A stretch of DNA of 38,345 nucleotides, taken from assembly GCA_016208465.1 (NCBI GenBank), contig JACQXZ010000020.1:1-38345 (forward strand), in the 5' to 3' direction. Position numbers and translations under genes: made by a program. The notes beneath the pieces are model-generated. The model worked only from the letters and a program-made list of their open reading frames with translations, ran no database searches and was not told the origin of the DNA. This DNA comes from Actinomycetota bacterium. Its GTDB lineage: Bacteria; Actinomycetota; Aquicultoria; JACQXZ01. Of the stretch, positions 17,004-23,664 are shown one piece after another (the first letter of the stretch is position 1; each line of letters starts with the position of its first letter).

Positions 17004-17112
17004 CCAAAAAGGCTTTCATGCTTTATAGAGCGAAGTATAAATTACCAGAGCATTTATTGCAATATTATGTGCAAACTATGTCCCCGTTCGCTCAGTCCGG
17101 TTGAATGAGTTG

Positions 17113-17565
17113 TTAAACATCTTTATTTTTCTTCAGATAATTGGCGTCTAATTTATCTTTTTCTCTGCCCGTGGCTTCTTTGTTTTTAATAAGATTTCCC
17201 TTGGAAAGAAAGGGAATAGAAATACTTTCAATTTCTATATTTTCTTTACCCTTATAAGCTTCAATAAATTCAACCCCATCAATAAACGTTAATATATCTA
17301 TTCGTCTCGGCGCTACACCAATTTGGAAAACAATCCCTTCTTCAGTAAAAGTTTCAGGATTTATTTGTCCAAGTGGAGCACCAAATTCAGTAAGGGAATT
17401 ATATACTTTTTTTGAATTTTCAGGTGATGGTTCAACCCATATATCAAAATCTCCAGTTGCACGGGGATAACCTTGCGCGCCCATCGCGTACGCGCCAACA
17501 ACAAGGAATTTTACCTTATTGTTTAATAAGATTTGTAACATTTCTTTGTAATCTTCGTTCAACAT
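17113..17565 (-). CDS. nucleotidyltransferase-fold protein (MNT/DUF6036-like)
   Basis: KFLVVGAYAMGAQGYPRATGDFDIWVEPSPEN (GxxAMxxxGxxRxTxDxDIW); ATG with GAGAGG RBS. Confidence 0.8.
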   Translation of the reverse strand: MLNEDYKEMLQILLNNKVKFLVVGAYAMGAQGYPRATGDFDIWVEPSPENSKKVYNSLTEFGAPLGQINPETFTEEGIVFQIGVAPRRIDILTFIDGVEFIEAYKGKENIEIESISIPFLSKGNLIKNKEATGREKDKLDANYLKKNKDV

Positions 17566-17725: not shown

Positions 17726-17736
17726 ATGTTTCTAAC

Positions 17737-18134
17737 GAGGCTGTCGAAAAAGTCATTTTAAAAAATTTATTCGGCCTTAATTTTGATTTTTTATTTAAAA
17801 CGTAAATTCTTCCGGAAATTTCAAAAATATTTTTTTATTTTATCTTTAATTATTACTTTTATTAACTTAATTTCCGGTTTACTACTTATTTCTACGCAAA
17901 CCCCGTTCCGTATCTGTATATTTTACCAATATTATGAATGATTGCGAACAATTTCCATTGGATATTTATTTTTTGTTTTCTTCTTAATGTAAATCCATTT
18001 AATCCCGGATTGTTTTTTATGTTTCCAAATACAGGTTCAATTATTCCCATTCGTTTATTATAATTTACAATTATATCTGATATTTTAGTCAAAAGAAGGT
18101 ATTTTTCTTGTAAAAAAAGTTTTTCGACAGCTTC
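17737..18134 (-). mobile_element. 398-bp IS remnant/MITE-like insertion with transposase C-terminal fragment
   Basis: Terminal IR GAGGCTGTCGAAAAA / TTTTTCGACAGCTTC (14/15 complementary); flanking AAC on both sides; contains transposase-like ORF 17892-18092. Confidence 0.8.
17892..18092 (-). pseudogene. transposase C-terminal fragment (DDE family, IS1182/IS5-like)
   Basis: NKRMGIIEPVFGNIKNNPGLNGFTLRRKQKINIQWKLFAIIHNIGKIYRYG resembles transposase C-termini (EPVFG.IK...L.G...V..QW.L....HN..K). Confidence 0.75.
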
Positions 18135-18189
18135 AACGTCAGAAATCAGCGGCGGCGTTTACGCCGTCCGCTGAAGTGATTTGTTAGGC
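18131..18189 (-). repeat. attC3 (R' interrupted by IS remnant)
   Basis: Minus: GCCTAAC AAATCACTTCAGCGGACGGCGTAAACGCCGCCGCTGATTTCTGAC GTTGAAG. Confidence 0.85.
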
Positions 18190-18320: not shown

Positions 18321-19820
18321 TTATCCACTTTTTTGTCGCTCAAGTGTTCGTAGGAGCTCTGAGTCATTTTCAAAATATCGCTTGGAGATGAGATAATATT
18401 GTAGGAATTCTTTTTTCTTTTTTGGGGGTAAACTATCGATAATTCTCGCCACATCCAAGTTTTGGTCTCCCTTTGCATCAAGCAAGTTTTTTTCTCGACA
18501 CCAATCACCCCATGCCTTGTTCTTAATTTTCAATTGTGAAAACCATTTTACGACCTGTGAATAGGGAATCTGCTTCAATATAGGATTAGGACTATATATA
18601 AACTGGTTGATTGTGCTGATTATGACTGGGAACCACCGGTCGTAATCAAGGCTTCTCTGGAGGGGATGACCCAACCCCTCGACTTGCAGGATGTTTAAGC
18701 CCCGAAACTCTGTGTTGGTTGCAACATGGTCCTCTTTCTTAAGAAACTGCAAGAGGTGTTCAGCTGGAGAAACGATATCTGCTCCACCTGCAATGAAGAG
18801 GAGCTTATGCGCGTTTTGGCGAAAGACGTTGGCTATTCGCTCATCATTGAATGGTCGCTCAAAAAGCACTTCATTGAGGAAAGCCCGCTCATCACCTATG
18901 TCATCTGGCAGATGAAACCTAATCTCATGGCATTTGCGCTTAATCTCTTTCCATTCGTCATCATAGATCCCTACCGGCTTAGTCTTGAGGTCGTCAATGG
19001 AGGCGCCTGAGTTCACTAGTATGCAATGGTCGAATAGGTCAGGATTCCTCAAAAAGGTGAACAGAGCCTGTAAACCGCCGAGAGAATAGCCTAAGAGGTG
19101 TACTTTCAGGTTGGGTCGATCGAATAAATAGTCGTAAAAGTAGTTGTCATTGGAATCCATGTTGACAGACGCATCCGCCGTATTTGTAGAGCCATGCGAC
19201 TTGCGGAGGTACCTAGCAAAGCTAGTTATCTCATTTGCTATCTGTTTAAAGCAGTAAAAAAGTGATTCAGGACGTGAAAGCATACTTTTATGCGGTTTAC
19301 GCATCATTGTAGGAGCACCCGGTGCTTGTGGCCACCTTTGCTTTGAGTTAGAACGATTTTCGTACCGTGTCCTAAATCGCTCCTCGAGGTAGCTTGTCCG
19401 ATTCAGGTGAAATGGCGTAGGAAATAGAACGGCTCCTATATACCTTAATGCGAGAGATGCGCCTATACGATCGTAGTGTGAATAATGGATATGTTCGATT
19501 TCGTTTAGGCCGTTAAGCATAATGAGAAGGTTTTGGATCTTCTGAAGAGGCAAACTCACGGCGTTTAAGGGCACATAGAAAGATAAATCAAAAGACTTCA
19601 CATGTTCACATACCCAATGAAACTCGTTCTTTCTAGCCTTTTCTTGTGAACTATTAACGACTTCATCATAAAACCTCACAAGCTTGACATTGATGTTTTT
19701 AAGAAGACCCATAGTTTCTTTGTCCAGACTGAAAGTGATGGGGAATTTGTGCGATTTTGGAGGCCACTGACGTGCGCCGAGCCGTCCGAGCGTAGGCAAA
19801 TCCTGTCTCTTGTTCTTCAT
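18321..19820 (-). CDS. alpha/beta hydrolase-fold protein, integron cassette gene
   Basis: Nucleophile elbow GYSLGG, GGADIVSP acid loop, GLGHPLQ histidine; RBS AGGGGG. Confidence 0.75.
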   Translation of the reverse strand: MKNKRQDLPTLGRLGARQWPPKSHKFPITFSLDKETMGLLKNINVKLVRFYDEVVNSSQEKARKNEFHWVCEHVKSFDLSFYVPLNAVSLPLQKIQNLLIMLNGLNEIEHIHYSHYDRIGASLALRYIGAVLFPTPFHLNRTSYLEERFRTRYENRSNSKQRWPQAPGAPTMMRKPHKSMLSRPESLFYCFKQIANEITSFARYLRKSHGSTNTADASVNMDSNDNYFYDYLFDRPNLKVHLLGYSLGGLQALFTFLRNPDLFDHCILVNSGASIDDLKTKPVGIYDDEWKEIKRKCHEIRFHLPDDIGDERAFLNEVLFERPFNDERIANVFRQNAHKLLFIAGGADIVSPAEHLLQFLKKEDHVATNTEFRGLNILQVEGLGHPLQRSLDYDRWFPVIISTINQFIYSPNPILKQIPYSQVVKWFSQLKIKNKAWGDWCREKNLLDAKGDQNLDVARIIDSLPPKKKKEFLQYYLISKRYFENDSELLRTLERQKSG

Positions 19821-19860: not shown

Positions 19861-19940
19861 GCCTAACGCCATAAATCAGCGGTGGTTACACGCGGCGCCT
19901 TTGGCCGCATTTAAGCATCCGCTGGATTGATTTGTTAGAA
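19861..19940 (-). repeat. attC2
   Basis: Minus: TTCTAAC AAATCAATCCAGCGGATG...CCACCGCTGATTTATGGC GTTAGGC. Confidence 0.9.
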
Positions 19941-20002: not shown

Positions 20003-20623
20003 CTATATTTCTTTTATCCCAAAGATTATTTCAACAAAAGCTACTCTTGCATAAAAAGCTCTTGTGGTGCTTCCATGTCCAGATCCTTTTGTGCGAGGTT
20101 GAATATATTTACCCATACTACCAGTCAAAGCATTGAAACCCTCTGTTTTAATTGTATGTCGTACAAGCTCGTAATCTTCTTTGATTTGTTGCCAAAAATT
20201 TGTTGAAAGCAAATCAAAACTGTTTACATAAAGTAATTGTGATGAACTTTCTTGATTATCTACTCTTTCGCGACCGCAAATAATCATTTTTTTCATTTTG
20301 TCGAACAAGTGGCTCTTTTCAAAAGGTTTGGCAAGTACATCATCGGCATTGATCATAGTTATTGCCATTGTCTCTTTCACTTTCCAAACGCCATTCTTTT
20401 TTAGAAGTGGAACAAGTTTCAACTCCCAATAATCACCATTTGAGGCTTGTATACAATTATTACCAATACCAATAGCTTTTTCTAAAGTTAAACCCGCCCA
20501 TCCTTTATTAAATTTTTCATTTTTGAAAACTGTAATATTGTTTTTATCAGCAAGTTTTCTTAGGTCTTGTCCGATAAGTTTTTGTAGAAGTTGTGTTGCT
20601 TCAAAGCGAGTAATATTTTTCAT
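20003..20623 (-). CDS. type II restriction endonuclease, MutH/Sau3AI-like
   Basis: KGWAGLTLEKAIGIGNN...NGDYWELKLVPLLKKNG..KVKETMAITMIN; ExK-type motif; ATGA overlap with methyltransferase. Confidence 0.7.
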   Translation of the reverse strand: MKNITRFEATQLLQKLIGQDLRKLADKNNITVFKNEKFNKGWAGLTLEKAIGIGNNCIQASNGDYWELKLVPLLKKNGVWKVKETMAITMINADDVLAKPFEKSHLFDKMKKMIICGRERVDNQESSSQLLYVNSFDLLSTNFWQQIKEDYELVRHTIKTEGFNALTGSMGKYIQPRTKGSGHGSTTRAFYARVAFVEIIFGIKEI

Positions 20624-21507
20624 TGGGCAGGTATTAAATTTGTTAAATGTTTATAGTTTTCAATTTTTATCGGCTTAGATTTTATTTGTTTTTCTGATTT
20701 TTTCTCATAAAATTTTACTAAATTTTTTTTTAATTGTTCAAATCTTTTTATAGATAAATCCAAATATGATTTTTCGATTTCAATTCCAATAAATTTTCTT
20801 CCATAAAGATGAGCCATAAGTCCTGTTGTGGCACTTCCAGTAAAAGGATCAAGAATTGTATCACCTTTATTTGTGCTTGCTAAAACAATTCTTTTTAATA
20901 AATCTTCAGGTTTTTGCGTTGGGTGTTTGCCAAACTTTTTTTCAATTGGTTTTGGTGTATTAATAGACCAAACTGATCTCATTTGTAAATTTGGTTTCTT
21001 GAGCTGATCTTCCGGAAAGTCGCCATTTTTCATAGCTTCATAATTAAAAGTATGCTTAGCTTGTTTATCTTTTCTTGCCCAGATCAAAGTTTCATGACTT
21101 GCTGTAAAAAAACGACAAGAAAGGTTTGGAGAAGCATTCGGTTTAAACCAAGCAACATCATTGAGAATATGAAAATGATGGACTTGTAAAGCAAAACCAC
21201 ATTGATAAATTGAGTGATAAGTACCGCTAATCCAAATAGTTCCATTAGGTTTCAATACTCTTTTACAAACTTCAATCCATGCAAGATGAAAATCAAAATT
21301 CTTTTTCGTGCCATTTGATAAATCCCAATCGCCTTTTTTTACACTAACCATTTTCCCGTTTTGACATGTAAAAGTTCCACTTGAAAGAAAATAAGGAGGA
21401 TCGGCAAAAATCATATCCACAGAGTTTTCTGGGATTTGTGCCAAAATATCAAGACAATCAGCTTGATATAATGTGAAGTTTGACTTTTCGTAATATGGTT
21501 TATTCAT
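20620..21507 (-). CDS. DNA adenine methyltransferase, DpnA/M.HinfI-like (beta class)
   Basis: DMIFADPPYFLSSG (DPPY), KGDWDLS, WFKPNASPNLSCRFFTASHETLIWA, GKHPTQKPEDLLKRIVLAS, ILDPFTGSATTG. Confidence 0.92.
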   Translation of the reverse strand: MNKPYYEKSNFTLYQADCLDILAQIPENSVDMIFADPPYFLSSGTFTCQNGKMVSVKKGDWDLSNGTKKNFDFHLAWIEVCKRVLKPNGTIWISGTYHSIYQCGFALQVHHFHILNDVAWFKPNASPNLSCRFFTASHETLIWARKDKQAKHTFNYEAMKNGDFPEDQLKKPNLQMRSVWSINTPKPIEKKFGKHPTQKPEDLLKRIVLASTNKGDTILDPFTGSATTGLMAHLYGRKFIGIEIEKSYLDLSIKRFEQLKKNLVKFYEKKSEKQIKSKPIKIENYKHLTNLIPAQ

Positions 21508-21588: not shown

Positions 21589-21646
21589 TTCTAACGTCTG
21601 AAATCAGCGGCGGCTATCAGCCGTCCGCTGGAGTGATTTGTTAGCC
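21589..21646 (-). repeat. attC1
   Basis: Minus: GGCTAAC AAATCACTCCAGCGGACGGCTGATAGCCGCCGCTGATTTCAGAC GTTAGAA. Confidence 0.92.
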
Positions 21647-21651
21647 CTTTT

Positions 21652-21933
21652 TCATCGTTTCTTTAAATAATGTTTCAAGTCTCGATAATAATTTTCATGA
21701 GGCCCAATCATAATTAACTCTAAATCCTCTCCAAGCAATCGATAGGCAAGAAGATATTGCGTCGTTTTAATTTTGAATTTATGAACAAATATTTCTCTTA
21801 AGTCTCCTTTCTTTTCATTTCCGATAGATGGATTATCTGCAATTTTCCTTATCTCCTGATCTAATATCTTTTTTTCTGGTTTAGATATTTTTTTTACCTT
21901 TTTTTCAAAAGACCCTGATTGGTATATTTTCAT
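21652..21933 (-). CDS. RelE/ParE superfamily toxin
   Basis: SGSFEKKVKKISKPEKKILDQEIRKIADNPSIGNEKKGDLREIFVHKFKIKTTQYLLAYRL. Confidence 0.85.
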   Translation of the reverse strand: MKIYQSGSFEKKVKKISKPEKKILDQEIRKIADNPSIGNEKKGDLREIFVHKFKIKTTQYLLAYRLLGEDLELIMIGPHENYYRDLKHYLKKR

Positions 21934-21939
21934 TAGACT

Positions 21940-22158
21940 TTATCCAAATTTATATTCAGATTTTTCGCCTTGCTCCAATTCTTCTATTCCAAATAAAATT
22001 TCTTTGATGAGCGAATAGGTCAAATCCGGATTTTCCTCAACACACTTACCTATTCGGGCCCAGTGTTCAATTTGACCAGTTAATGATCTATGGTCTATCC
22101 GGCTGTATTTTTTTGCCTCATTAACAAGTTTTTCAGAGATTCTAACTGCGGCTGCCAT
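21940..22158 (-). CDS. ParD-like antitoxin
   Basis: AAAVRISEKLVNEAKKYSRIDHRSLTGQIEHWARIGKCVEENPDLTY. Confidence 0.85.
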   Translation of the reverse strand: MAAAVRISEKLVNEAKKYSRIDHRSLTGQIEHWARIGKCVEENPDLTYSLIKEILFGIEELEQGEKSEYKFG

Positions 22159-22431: not shown

Positions 22432-23664
22432 ATGTTAAAGGAATTTAAAGAATATCTGCTCCAAAAAGGCAAGGTAAAAACAAATCAAATCCCTTATTAC
22501 TTAAAGTGGACAGGAAACTGCTATGCCTTTCTAAATATTTCTGATTCAACCCTGCTAAATAGCGATCAAAAAAAGCAGTTTTTAATGCATATGGCAAAAA
22601 ATCATGAGGATTGGCAGGTAAGTCAGGCTGATACAGCGTTGAGACTATACAGTTATTTTCTTTCTCAAAAATTTAAGACATCAATTCCAGTAAGTATCAC
22701 AAAAGAAAGTTGGAACATCGTAGAAGAAAAATTGCGCGAATCACTAAGGCTTCGTCACAGATCGTATTCTACTGAAAAGACCTACATTGCATGGGCAAGA
22801 AGTTTTCGATCGTTTTTGAATCACAAGGAACCAAAAGAGCTAGATAGTAGAAACCTTCAGGATTTTCTGAGCCATCTTGCTGTTGAAAAAAAGGTATCGC
22901 CTTCCACGCAAAACCAAGCCCTTAACGCCATTATTTTTCTTTATCGCTATGTGTTTGAAAAAGATATAGAGGGTATGATAGATGCAGTGCGGGCGCGACA
23001 GAGGAGAGGACTTCCTGTAGTTTTAACTATAAAAGAAGTACATTCAATTTTTGATTTACTTTCAGGTATTAACCGTCTTATAGCAATGCTGATTTATGGA
23101 TGCGGTTTACGGCTGAATGAATGTCTGGGACTTAGAATAAAAGATATTGATCTGGAACAAAACATTTTAATTGTAAGGGCAGGAAAAGGAGATAAAGACC
23201 GTAGGACCATGCTTCCTGAAACATTGAAAGATAACCTTATTCATCATATCTCAGAAGCAAGGGCAATATACGATGAGGATAGGGCAAAAAATCTGAATGG
23301 TGTATATCTGCCAAATGCTCTTGAAAAAAAATATCCCAATGCGGGCAAGGAATGGGGTTGGTTCTGGCTTTTTCCTTCAAAATCGCTTTCGGTAGAGCCA
23401 CGTACTCATGTTGTCCGGCGTCATCATGTCCATCCAGCATCTCTTCAAAAGGCATTTAAAACGGCTGTTATAAAATCGGGCGTTACAAAACAAGCATCCG
23501 TTCACACACTCAGGCATAGTTTTGCGACTCATCTTTTGGAAAACGGATATGATATCAGAACCATCCAGGAATTGCTTGGACATCAAAACCTCCAAACAAC
23601 AATGATCTATACTCATGTCGCAACAAAAAACATCTTGGGAGTGAAAAGTCCCTTGGATGGATAA
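22432..23664 (+). CDS. intI: integron integrase IntI (extended N-terminus)
   Basis: Tyrosine recombinase; IntI-specific region GVYLPNALEKKYPNAGKEWGWFWLFPS...RRHHVHPASLQKAFKTAV; HTLRHSFATHLLENGYDIRTIQELLGHQNLQTTMIYTHV...GVKSPLD. Confidence 0.95.
   Translation: MLKEFKEYLLQKGKVKTNQIPYYLKWTGNCYAFLNISDSTLLNSDQKKQFLMHMAKNHEDWQVSQADTALRLYSYFLSQKFKTSIPVSITKESWNIVEEKLRESLRLRHRSYSTEKTYIAWARSFRSFLNHKEPKELDSRNLQDFLSHLAVEKKVSPSTQNQALNAIIFLYRYVFEKDIEGMIDAVRARQRRGLPVVLTIKEVHSIFDLLSGINRLIAMLIYGCGLRLNECLGLRIKDIDLEQNILIVRAGKGDKDRRTMLPETLKDNLIHHISEARAIYDEDRAKNLNGVYLPNALEKKYPNAGKEWGWFWLFPSKSLSVEPRTHVVRRHHVHPASLQKAFKTAVIKSGVTKQASVHTLRHSFATHLLENGYDIRTIQELLGHQNLQTTMIYTHVATKNILGVKSPLDG

Follow-up and report, generated by a model that had tools for sequence, protein, structure and literature searches.

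The window analysed here, a stretch of 38,345 nucleotides from an Actinomycetota bacterium, carries an integron whose cassettes are read on the minus strand, and the third of its recombination sites, attC3, is interrupted by a short element bounded by inverted repeats. The features to which we refer below are the following.

22432..23664, plus strand: integron integrase gene intI, 410 aa (NCBIfam TIGR02249, 413 bits, cut-off 265)
21589..21646, minus strand: attC1, uninterrupted
19861..19940, minus strand: attC2, uninterrupted
18321..19820, minus strand: cassette gene owning attC3 (the site entered), alpha/beta hydrolase fold
18135..18189, minus strand: arms of attC3, from R'' GCCTAAC (18183-18189) to R' GTT (18135-18137)
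18135..18137: target duplication, copy 2 (AAC on the plus strand, GTT on the minus strand)
17737..18134, minus strand: 398-bp element, a probable internally deleted member of an IS1182 clade, with the transposase remnant on the minus strand
18108..18134: terminal inverted repeat on the transposase 5' side, adjoining the attC3 arms; the minus strand reads GAAGCTGTCGAAAAAC
17895..18134, minus strand: 80 open codons starting at the inverted repeat; residues 24-74 resemble the C terminus of IS1182 transposase
17737..17763: terminal inverted repeat on the transposase 3' side, adjoining the following cassette
17734..17736: target duplication, copy 1 (AAC on the plus strand, GTT on the minus strand)
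17730..17736, minus strand: remainder of the attC3 R' core, GTTAGAA, separated from the arms by the element
17113..17565, minus strand: cassette gene downstream of the element, nucleotidyltransferase-like by eye

In the intI reading frame (22432-23664), about 97 residues precede the start of the match to the integron-integrase model. The first cassette beside the integrase (21652-22158) bears a ParD-like/ParE-like toxin-antitoxin pair, and toxin-antitoxin cassettes are the usual stabiliser of large arrays. Between attC1 and attC2 (20003-21507) lies a cassette with a CcrM-like DNA methyltransferase and a Sau3AI/MutH-like endonuclease, which probably form a restriction-modification pair. No family match was found for the cassette gene at 17113-17565; past this last cassette gene, at 17092-17116, there is a possible degenerate fourth attC (GTTGAATGAGTTGTTAAAC), whose clear partner arm is absent.

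A preliminary description of this DNA had reported an element at 17737-18134 with inverted repeats and AAC on both sides, inserted within the GTT crossover triplet of attC3. This was confirmed: the repeats (17737-17763 and 18108-18134) are imperfect arms of 27 nt each, 81% complementary, and AAC stands at 17734-17736 and 18135-18137. The accompanying claim, that removal of the element and one AAC gives a sequence close to attC1, also stood, as the attC3 flanks joined over one AAC read TTCTAACGTCAGAAATCAGCGGCGG and attC1 from 21589 reads TTCTAACGTCTGAAATCAGCGGCGG, with one base different over 25. The capacity of sites to form an attC hairpin was scored on a purpose-made scale, with a threshold of at least 15 and random sites as controls, which misses degenerate sites; attC3 scored 32, a value reached by 0/479 random GTT sites.

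The last part of the 80-codon frame matches DDE_Tnp_1_6 (PF13751) with 39.1 bits (cut-off 25.1), and the remnant aligns to positions 437-487 of the IS1182 model NF033551 with 42.6 bits, a score below the whole-protein cut-off because the remnant is truncated; L097, a full-length relative, reaches 278.5 bits with the same model (cut-off 270). A complete DDE catalytic domain is absent from the window copy, which keeps the last 60 or so residues, the missing part of the transposase amounting to about 1.4 kb. Since the N-terminal part is gone, the copy would be non-autonomous; judged from its sequence, it cannot move itself and is a remnant of an IS1182 member, not a working one. It may have been inserted already short, or a full element may have been deleted later, two histories which the sequence cannot tell apart.

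The search for a full-length parent of the element, as envisaged in the preliminary description, succeeded only in part: intact or longer relatives exist in several gammaproteobacteria, in a Manganitrophaceae metagenome-assembled genome (MAG) and in an unclassified MAG, whereas no intact copy was found in the source genome (1.75 Mb in 105 contigs, 89.5% complete). The latter holds three further remnants of the same kind. Those on contigs C52 and C90 have GTT against a full attC, and that on C41 has lost its attC side and retains an end with GTTAGTCC beside it; including the window copy, 4/4 remnants lie at an attC or at GTTAG/attC-like cores. The C52 remnant has kept the start of the transposase, MARYKNYSYTQT, resembling MARFKDYSYEQ and MARYKHYDTNQ of the relatives. 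Miniature elements of 127 bp with similar ends (GRGSCTGTTGAAAAA) also occur in this genome (C22:16207, C50:15063-15189, C77:4160-4287, C81:4213-4340 and C92:10244-10371; loci L021, L026, L028, L030 and L032). They were considered as relatives and rejected, having TAAA/TATA-like flanking repeats, no attC, no linkage to integrons and a target unlike that of the attC element. A second, different integron integrase is encoded on C41 (L034, 1485-2462), and cassettes bearing attC sites lie on its left, whereas the sequence on its right is cassette-like but degraded.

Scanning of genomes with the 80-residue tail revealed three loci in three MAGs, one unclassified (86% identity), one of Manganitrophaceae (63%) and one gammaproteobacterial (52%); plasmid records added relatives in Pseudoalteromonas and Catenovulum, and further copies were gathered from genomes carrying the first relatives. 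The set includes MAG contigs. When a full-length relative served as the query, matches were obtained in 24/369 genomes of the gammaproteobacterial class. The 397 genomes of the host's own phylum yielded mostly relatives of about 30% identity, which were used as the outgroup, and when these 397 genomes were queried with DNA, every match beyond the source genome was short. No relatives were found in viral contigs or among phages. In Pseudoalteromonas plasmid pPBSW1 (L089, 2147-2296), a miniature of about 144 bp occupies the GTT that immediately follows a longer element, and represents a second insertion nested at an already occupied core.

Of 29 transposases placed in a tree, the 17 users of GTT fell on one side of a branch with support of 100/100 and form one clade. 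The tail preserved in the window is too short for the tree, and it was placed by the 86% identity of its residues 25-80 to L075, a member of this clade. Outgroup IS1182 elements have CTAG wherever a duplication was recognised. Among the gammaproteobacterial genomes, intI was present in 20/24 with a transposase match versus 120/345 of the others (p = 3e-6); in one of the former, G509, the sole element belongs to the outgroup, and its exclusion gives 19/23 (p = 8e-6).

In the orientation of the transposase, the ends of the relatives read CGTT/GAGGCTGTNGAAAAA ... TTTTTCNACAGCCTC/GTTA. Over 51 loci, 38/39 left-end matches abut GTT, the sole exception lying inside L109 and being a probable false match. 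The 45 right-end matches abut GTT in 41 cases, AAC in two (L084 and L146, which are reversed insertions), GTC in one and ACC in one, the last being a second, doubtful match in L146. The base before the left GTT is C in 35/36, and that following the right GTT is A in 35/41; insertions are thus mostly of the form CGTT/IS/GTTA, in one orientation. The window copy shares with the relatives its terminal inverted repeats, its junction, a GTT duplication at attC R', and its orientation. Hairpin scores of at least 15 were obtained at 21/34 scorable insertion sites, in comparison with 3.4% of random GTT and 7.4% of random CGTTA sites from the same loci (p = 8e-23 and p = 7e-16, respectively), a control that is conservative because these loci contain real attCs. 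Some of the 13/34 sites under the threshold (L096, L109) resemble degenerate attCs by eye. The preliminary description had named copies at random AAC/GTT sites outside attC as evidence that would speak against its reading; most relatives proved to reside at the GTT of attC R'.

Genome G641 is informative, as it contains four 1735-bp copies differing by at most one base, in four contexts unrelated on both sides, although copies from the same genome are not fully independent. Two of them are at clear attCs and two at hairpin-free CGTTA sites. Together with L095, L131 and L132, which are CGTT/GTTA sites without a clear attC, the latter two indicate that attC is preferred, not obligatory. Loci L105 and L129 of this intI-bearing genome show the same insertion sequence at CGTT/GTTA without an attC hairpin, and represent secondary targets.

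On the basis of these data, we consider it highly probable that the 398-bp element is what internal deletion has left of a member of an IS1182 (DDE) clade that prefers the GTT of attC R'. An insertion by an element with a relaxed 3-bp target, whose position at attC is coincidental, might be proposed, since other members of IS1182 make no use of attC; however, the junction is common to the four remnants of the source genome and to dozens of ends elsewhere, and this census refutes coincidence, leaving such an explanation next to no credence. It might also be argued that the element is an ordinary gene cassette, or the start of one, and that IntI recombination put different attCs beside the same sequence. 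Indeed, GTT repeats mark the limits of every cassette, the duplicated triplet is exactly the repeat found at such a boundary, and GTTGAAG, at the left end of the element, resembles GTTRRRY. Nevertheless, the other end has no attC of its own and bears instead an inverted repeat, matching that of the first end, directly against GTTAGAA, and the element carries a DDE transposase. Moreover, the near-identical copies in G641 have different flanks on both sides, including non-cassette sites, which shows that the element moves alone and not as a cassette; this largely refutes the cassette reading, and we regard it as very improbable.

Recognition of a short sequence only, such as RCGTTA, with the enrichment at attC reflecting that attCs carry this core, deserves more attention, but we find it unlikely. 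The C before and the A after GTT are nearly invariant, two G641 copies occupy such cores without a hairpin, and tolerance of insertions within arrays could raise the share of attC. On the other hand, chance CGTTA sites, with thousands expected per genome, are far commoner than attC, yet most scorable insertion sites are attCs, and only 7.4% of random CGTTA sites score at or above the hairpin threshold. The intI-rich hosts and the single orientation also fit attC recognition better than targeting of a short sequence.

If attC is indeed the preferred target, the following course of insertion may be proposed. The transposase would recognise the foot of the attC hairpin, perhaps on the folded strand, together with a core resembling RCGTTA, and would cut GTT with a 3-nt stagger, joining in one orientation. 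Comparison of the insertions shows the element between two GTT copies, with the attC hairpin almost always at the transposase-start side and the next cassette at the transposase-end side, so that the transposase reads in the cassette direction. Inverted repeats are also the insertion sites of IS1272, a member of the same family (PMC5678879), and hairpin sensing may therefore be an ancestral trait that this clade has adapted to attC.

At occupied sites, GTTGAG or GTTGAA follows the attC arms, and the next cassette begins with a GTT of its own. The element begins with GAA in the window copy and with GAG in most relatives; therefore, an occupied attC still ends in GTTRRR beside its arms. As GTT is duplicated, the crossover triplet is present on both sides and the next cassette keeps its own copy. 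In the outer R box of attC3, five paired positions are reduced to the GTT core plus wobbles, as counted from the sequence, and the site, which the preliminary description had thought probably disabled or altered, may be weakened rather than destroyed. A more far-reaching proposal, which we put forward only tentatively and consider rather doubtful, is that members of the clade sense the attC hairpin in its folded state and, through the duplicated GTT, come to form the leading portion of the next cassette, mobile by both their own transposase and the integron integrase. If this were true, such an element would be mobile in two ways, parasitising the cassette system without breaking it.

A separate problem is the relation of this clade to other elements found at attC. 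Group IIC-attC introns insert at attC in a fixed orientation, as the clade does, but they consist of a ribozyme and a reverse transcriptase, unlike our element; no group II intron was matched by Rfam in the window, and no reverse transcriptase reading frame was found in the element. The IS1111-attC group (ISKpn4, ISPst6), reportedly described by Tetu and Holmes in 2008 and by Post and Hall in 2009, likewise comprises insertion sequences specialised on the attC sites of cassettes. However, the enzyme of IS1111 is of the DEDD type and guided by RNA, and the repeats are subterminal (PMC11187229), whereas the clade combines a DDE enzyme with terminal repeats and duplicates 3 bp at the R' crossover triplet, and the window element, with its DDE_Tnp_1_6 match, terminal repeats and GTT on both sides, lacks the marks of the IS1111-attC group. 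The suggestion in the preliminary description of a distinct attC-targeting lineage is thus supported by insertions mostly at the GTT of attC R', in one orientation, by one transposase clade unrelated to IS1111. With IS1272 and the IS1182 family (PMC5678879) the clade shares a DDE transposase matching NF033551 and PF13751 with DUF772, terminal inverted repeats and a preference for inverted-repeat (hairpin) targets; IS1272, however, replaces the target hairpin without duplication, whereas the clade duplicates GTT and the attC hairpin stays at its flank. The 'dif hunters' of the IS1202 family, which insert 5 bp from the XerC site of dif/pdif with a 5-bp duplication (PMC10132070), are similar in targeting the site of a tyrosine recombinase, in keeping to one orientation and in duplicating only a few bases, but differ in family, in target and in duplication length.

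In the literature searched, the known attC specialists are the IS1111-type elements (PMC11187229, PMC12444791) and group II introns (PMC7923331). No description of an attC-targeting IS1182 clade was found in the open literature, and prior naming in subscription papers or in ISfinder is possible; open papers naming both 'IS1182' and 'attC' describe no such targeting, as far as, for the most part, their titles tell. The clade looks like an unreported IS1182 branch specialised on integrons, distinct from both IS1111-attC elements and group IIC-attC introns. As only IS1111-type elements and group II introns specialise on integron attC in the literature searched, a clade of DDE insertion sequences from several bacterial groups, inserting precisely at the crossover triplet, would add a third solution, independent of these two. 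The clade makes the choice of a folded recombination site by a DDE transposase tractable, provides a link to the hairpin targeting of IS1272, and may explain the accumulation of some transposase genes inside cassette arrays.
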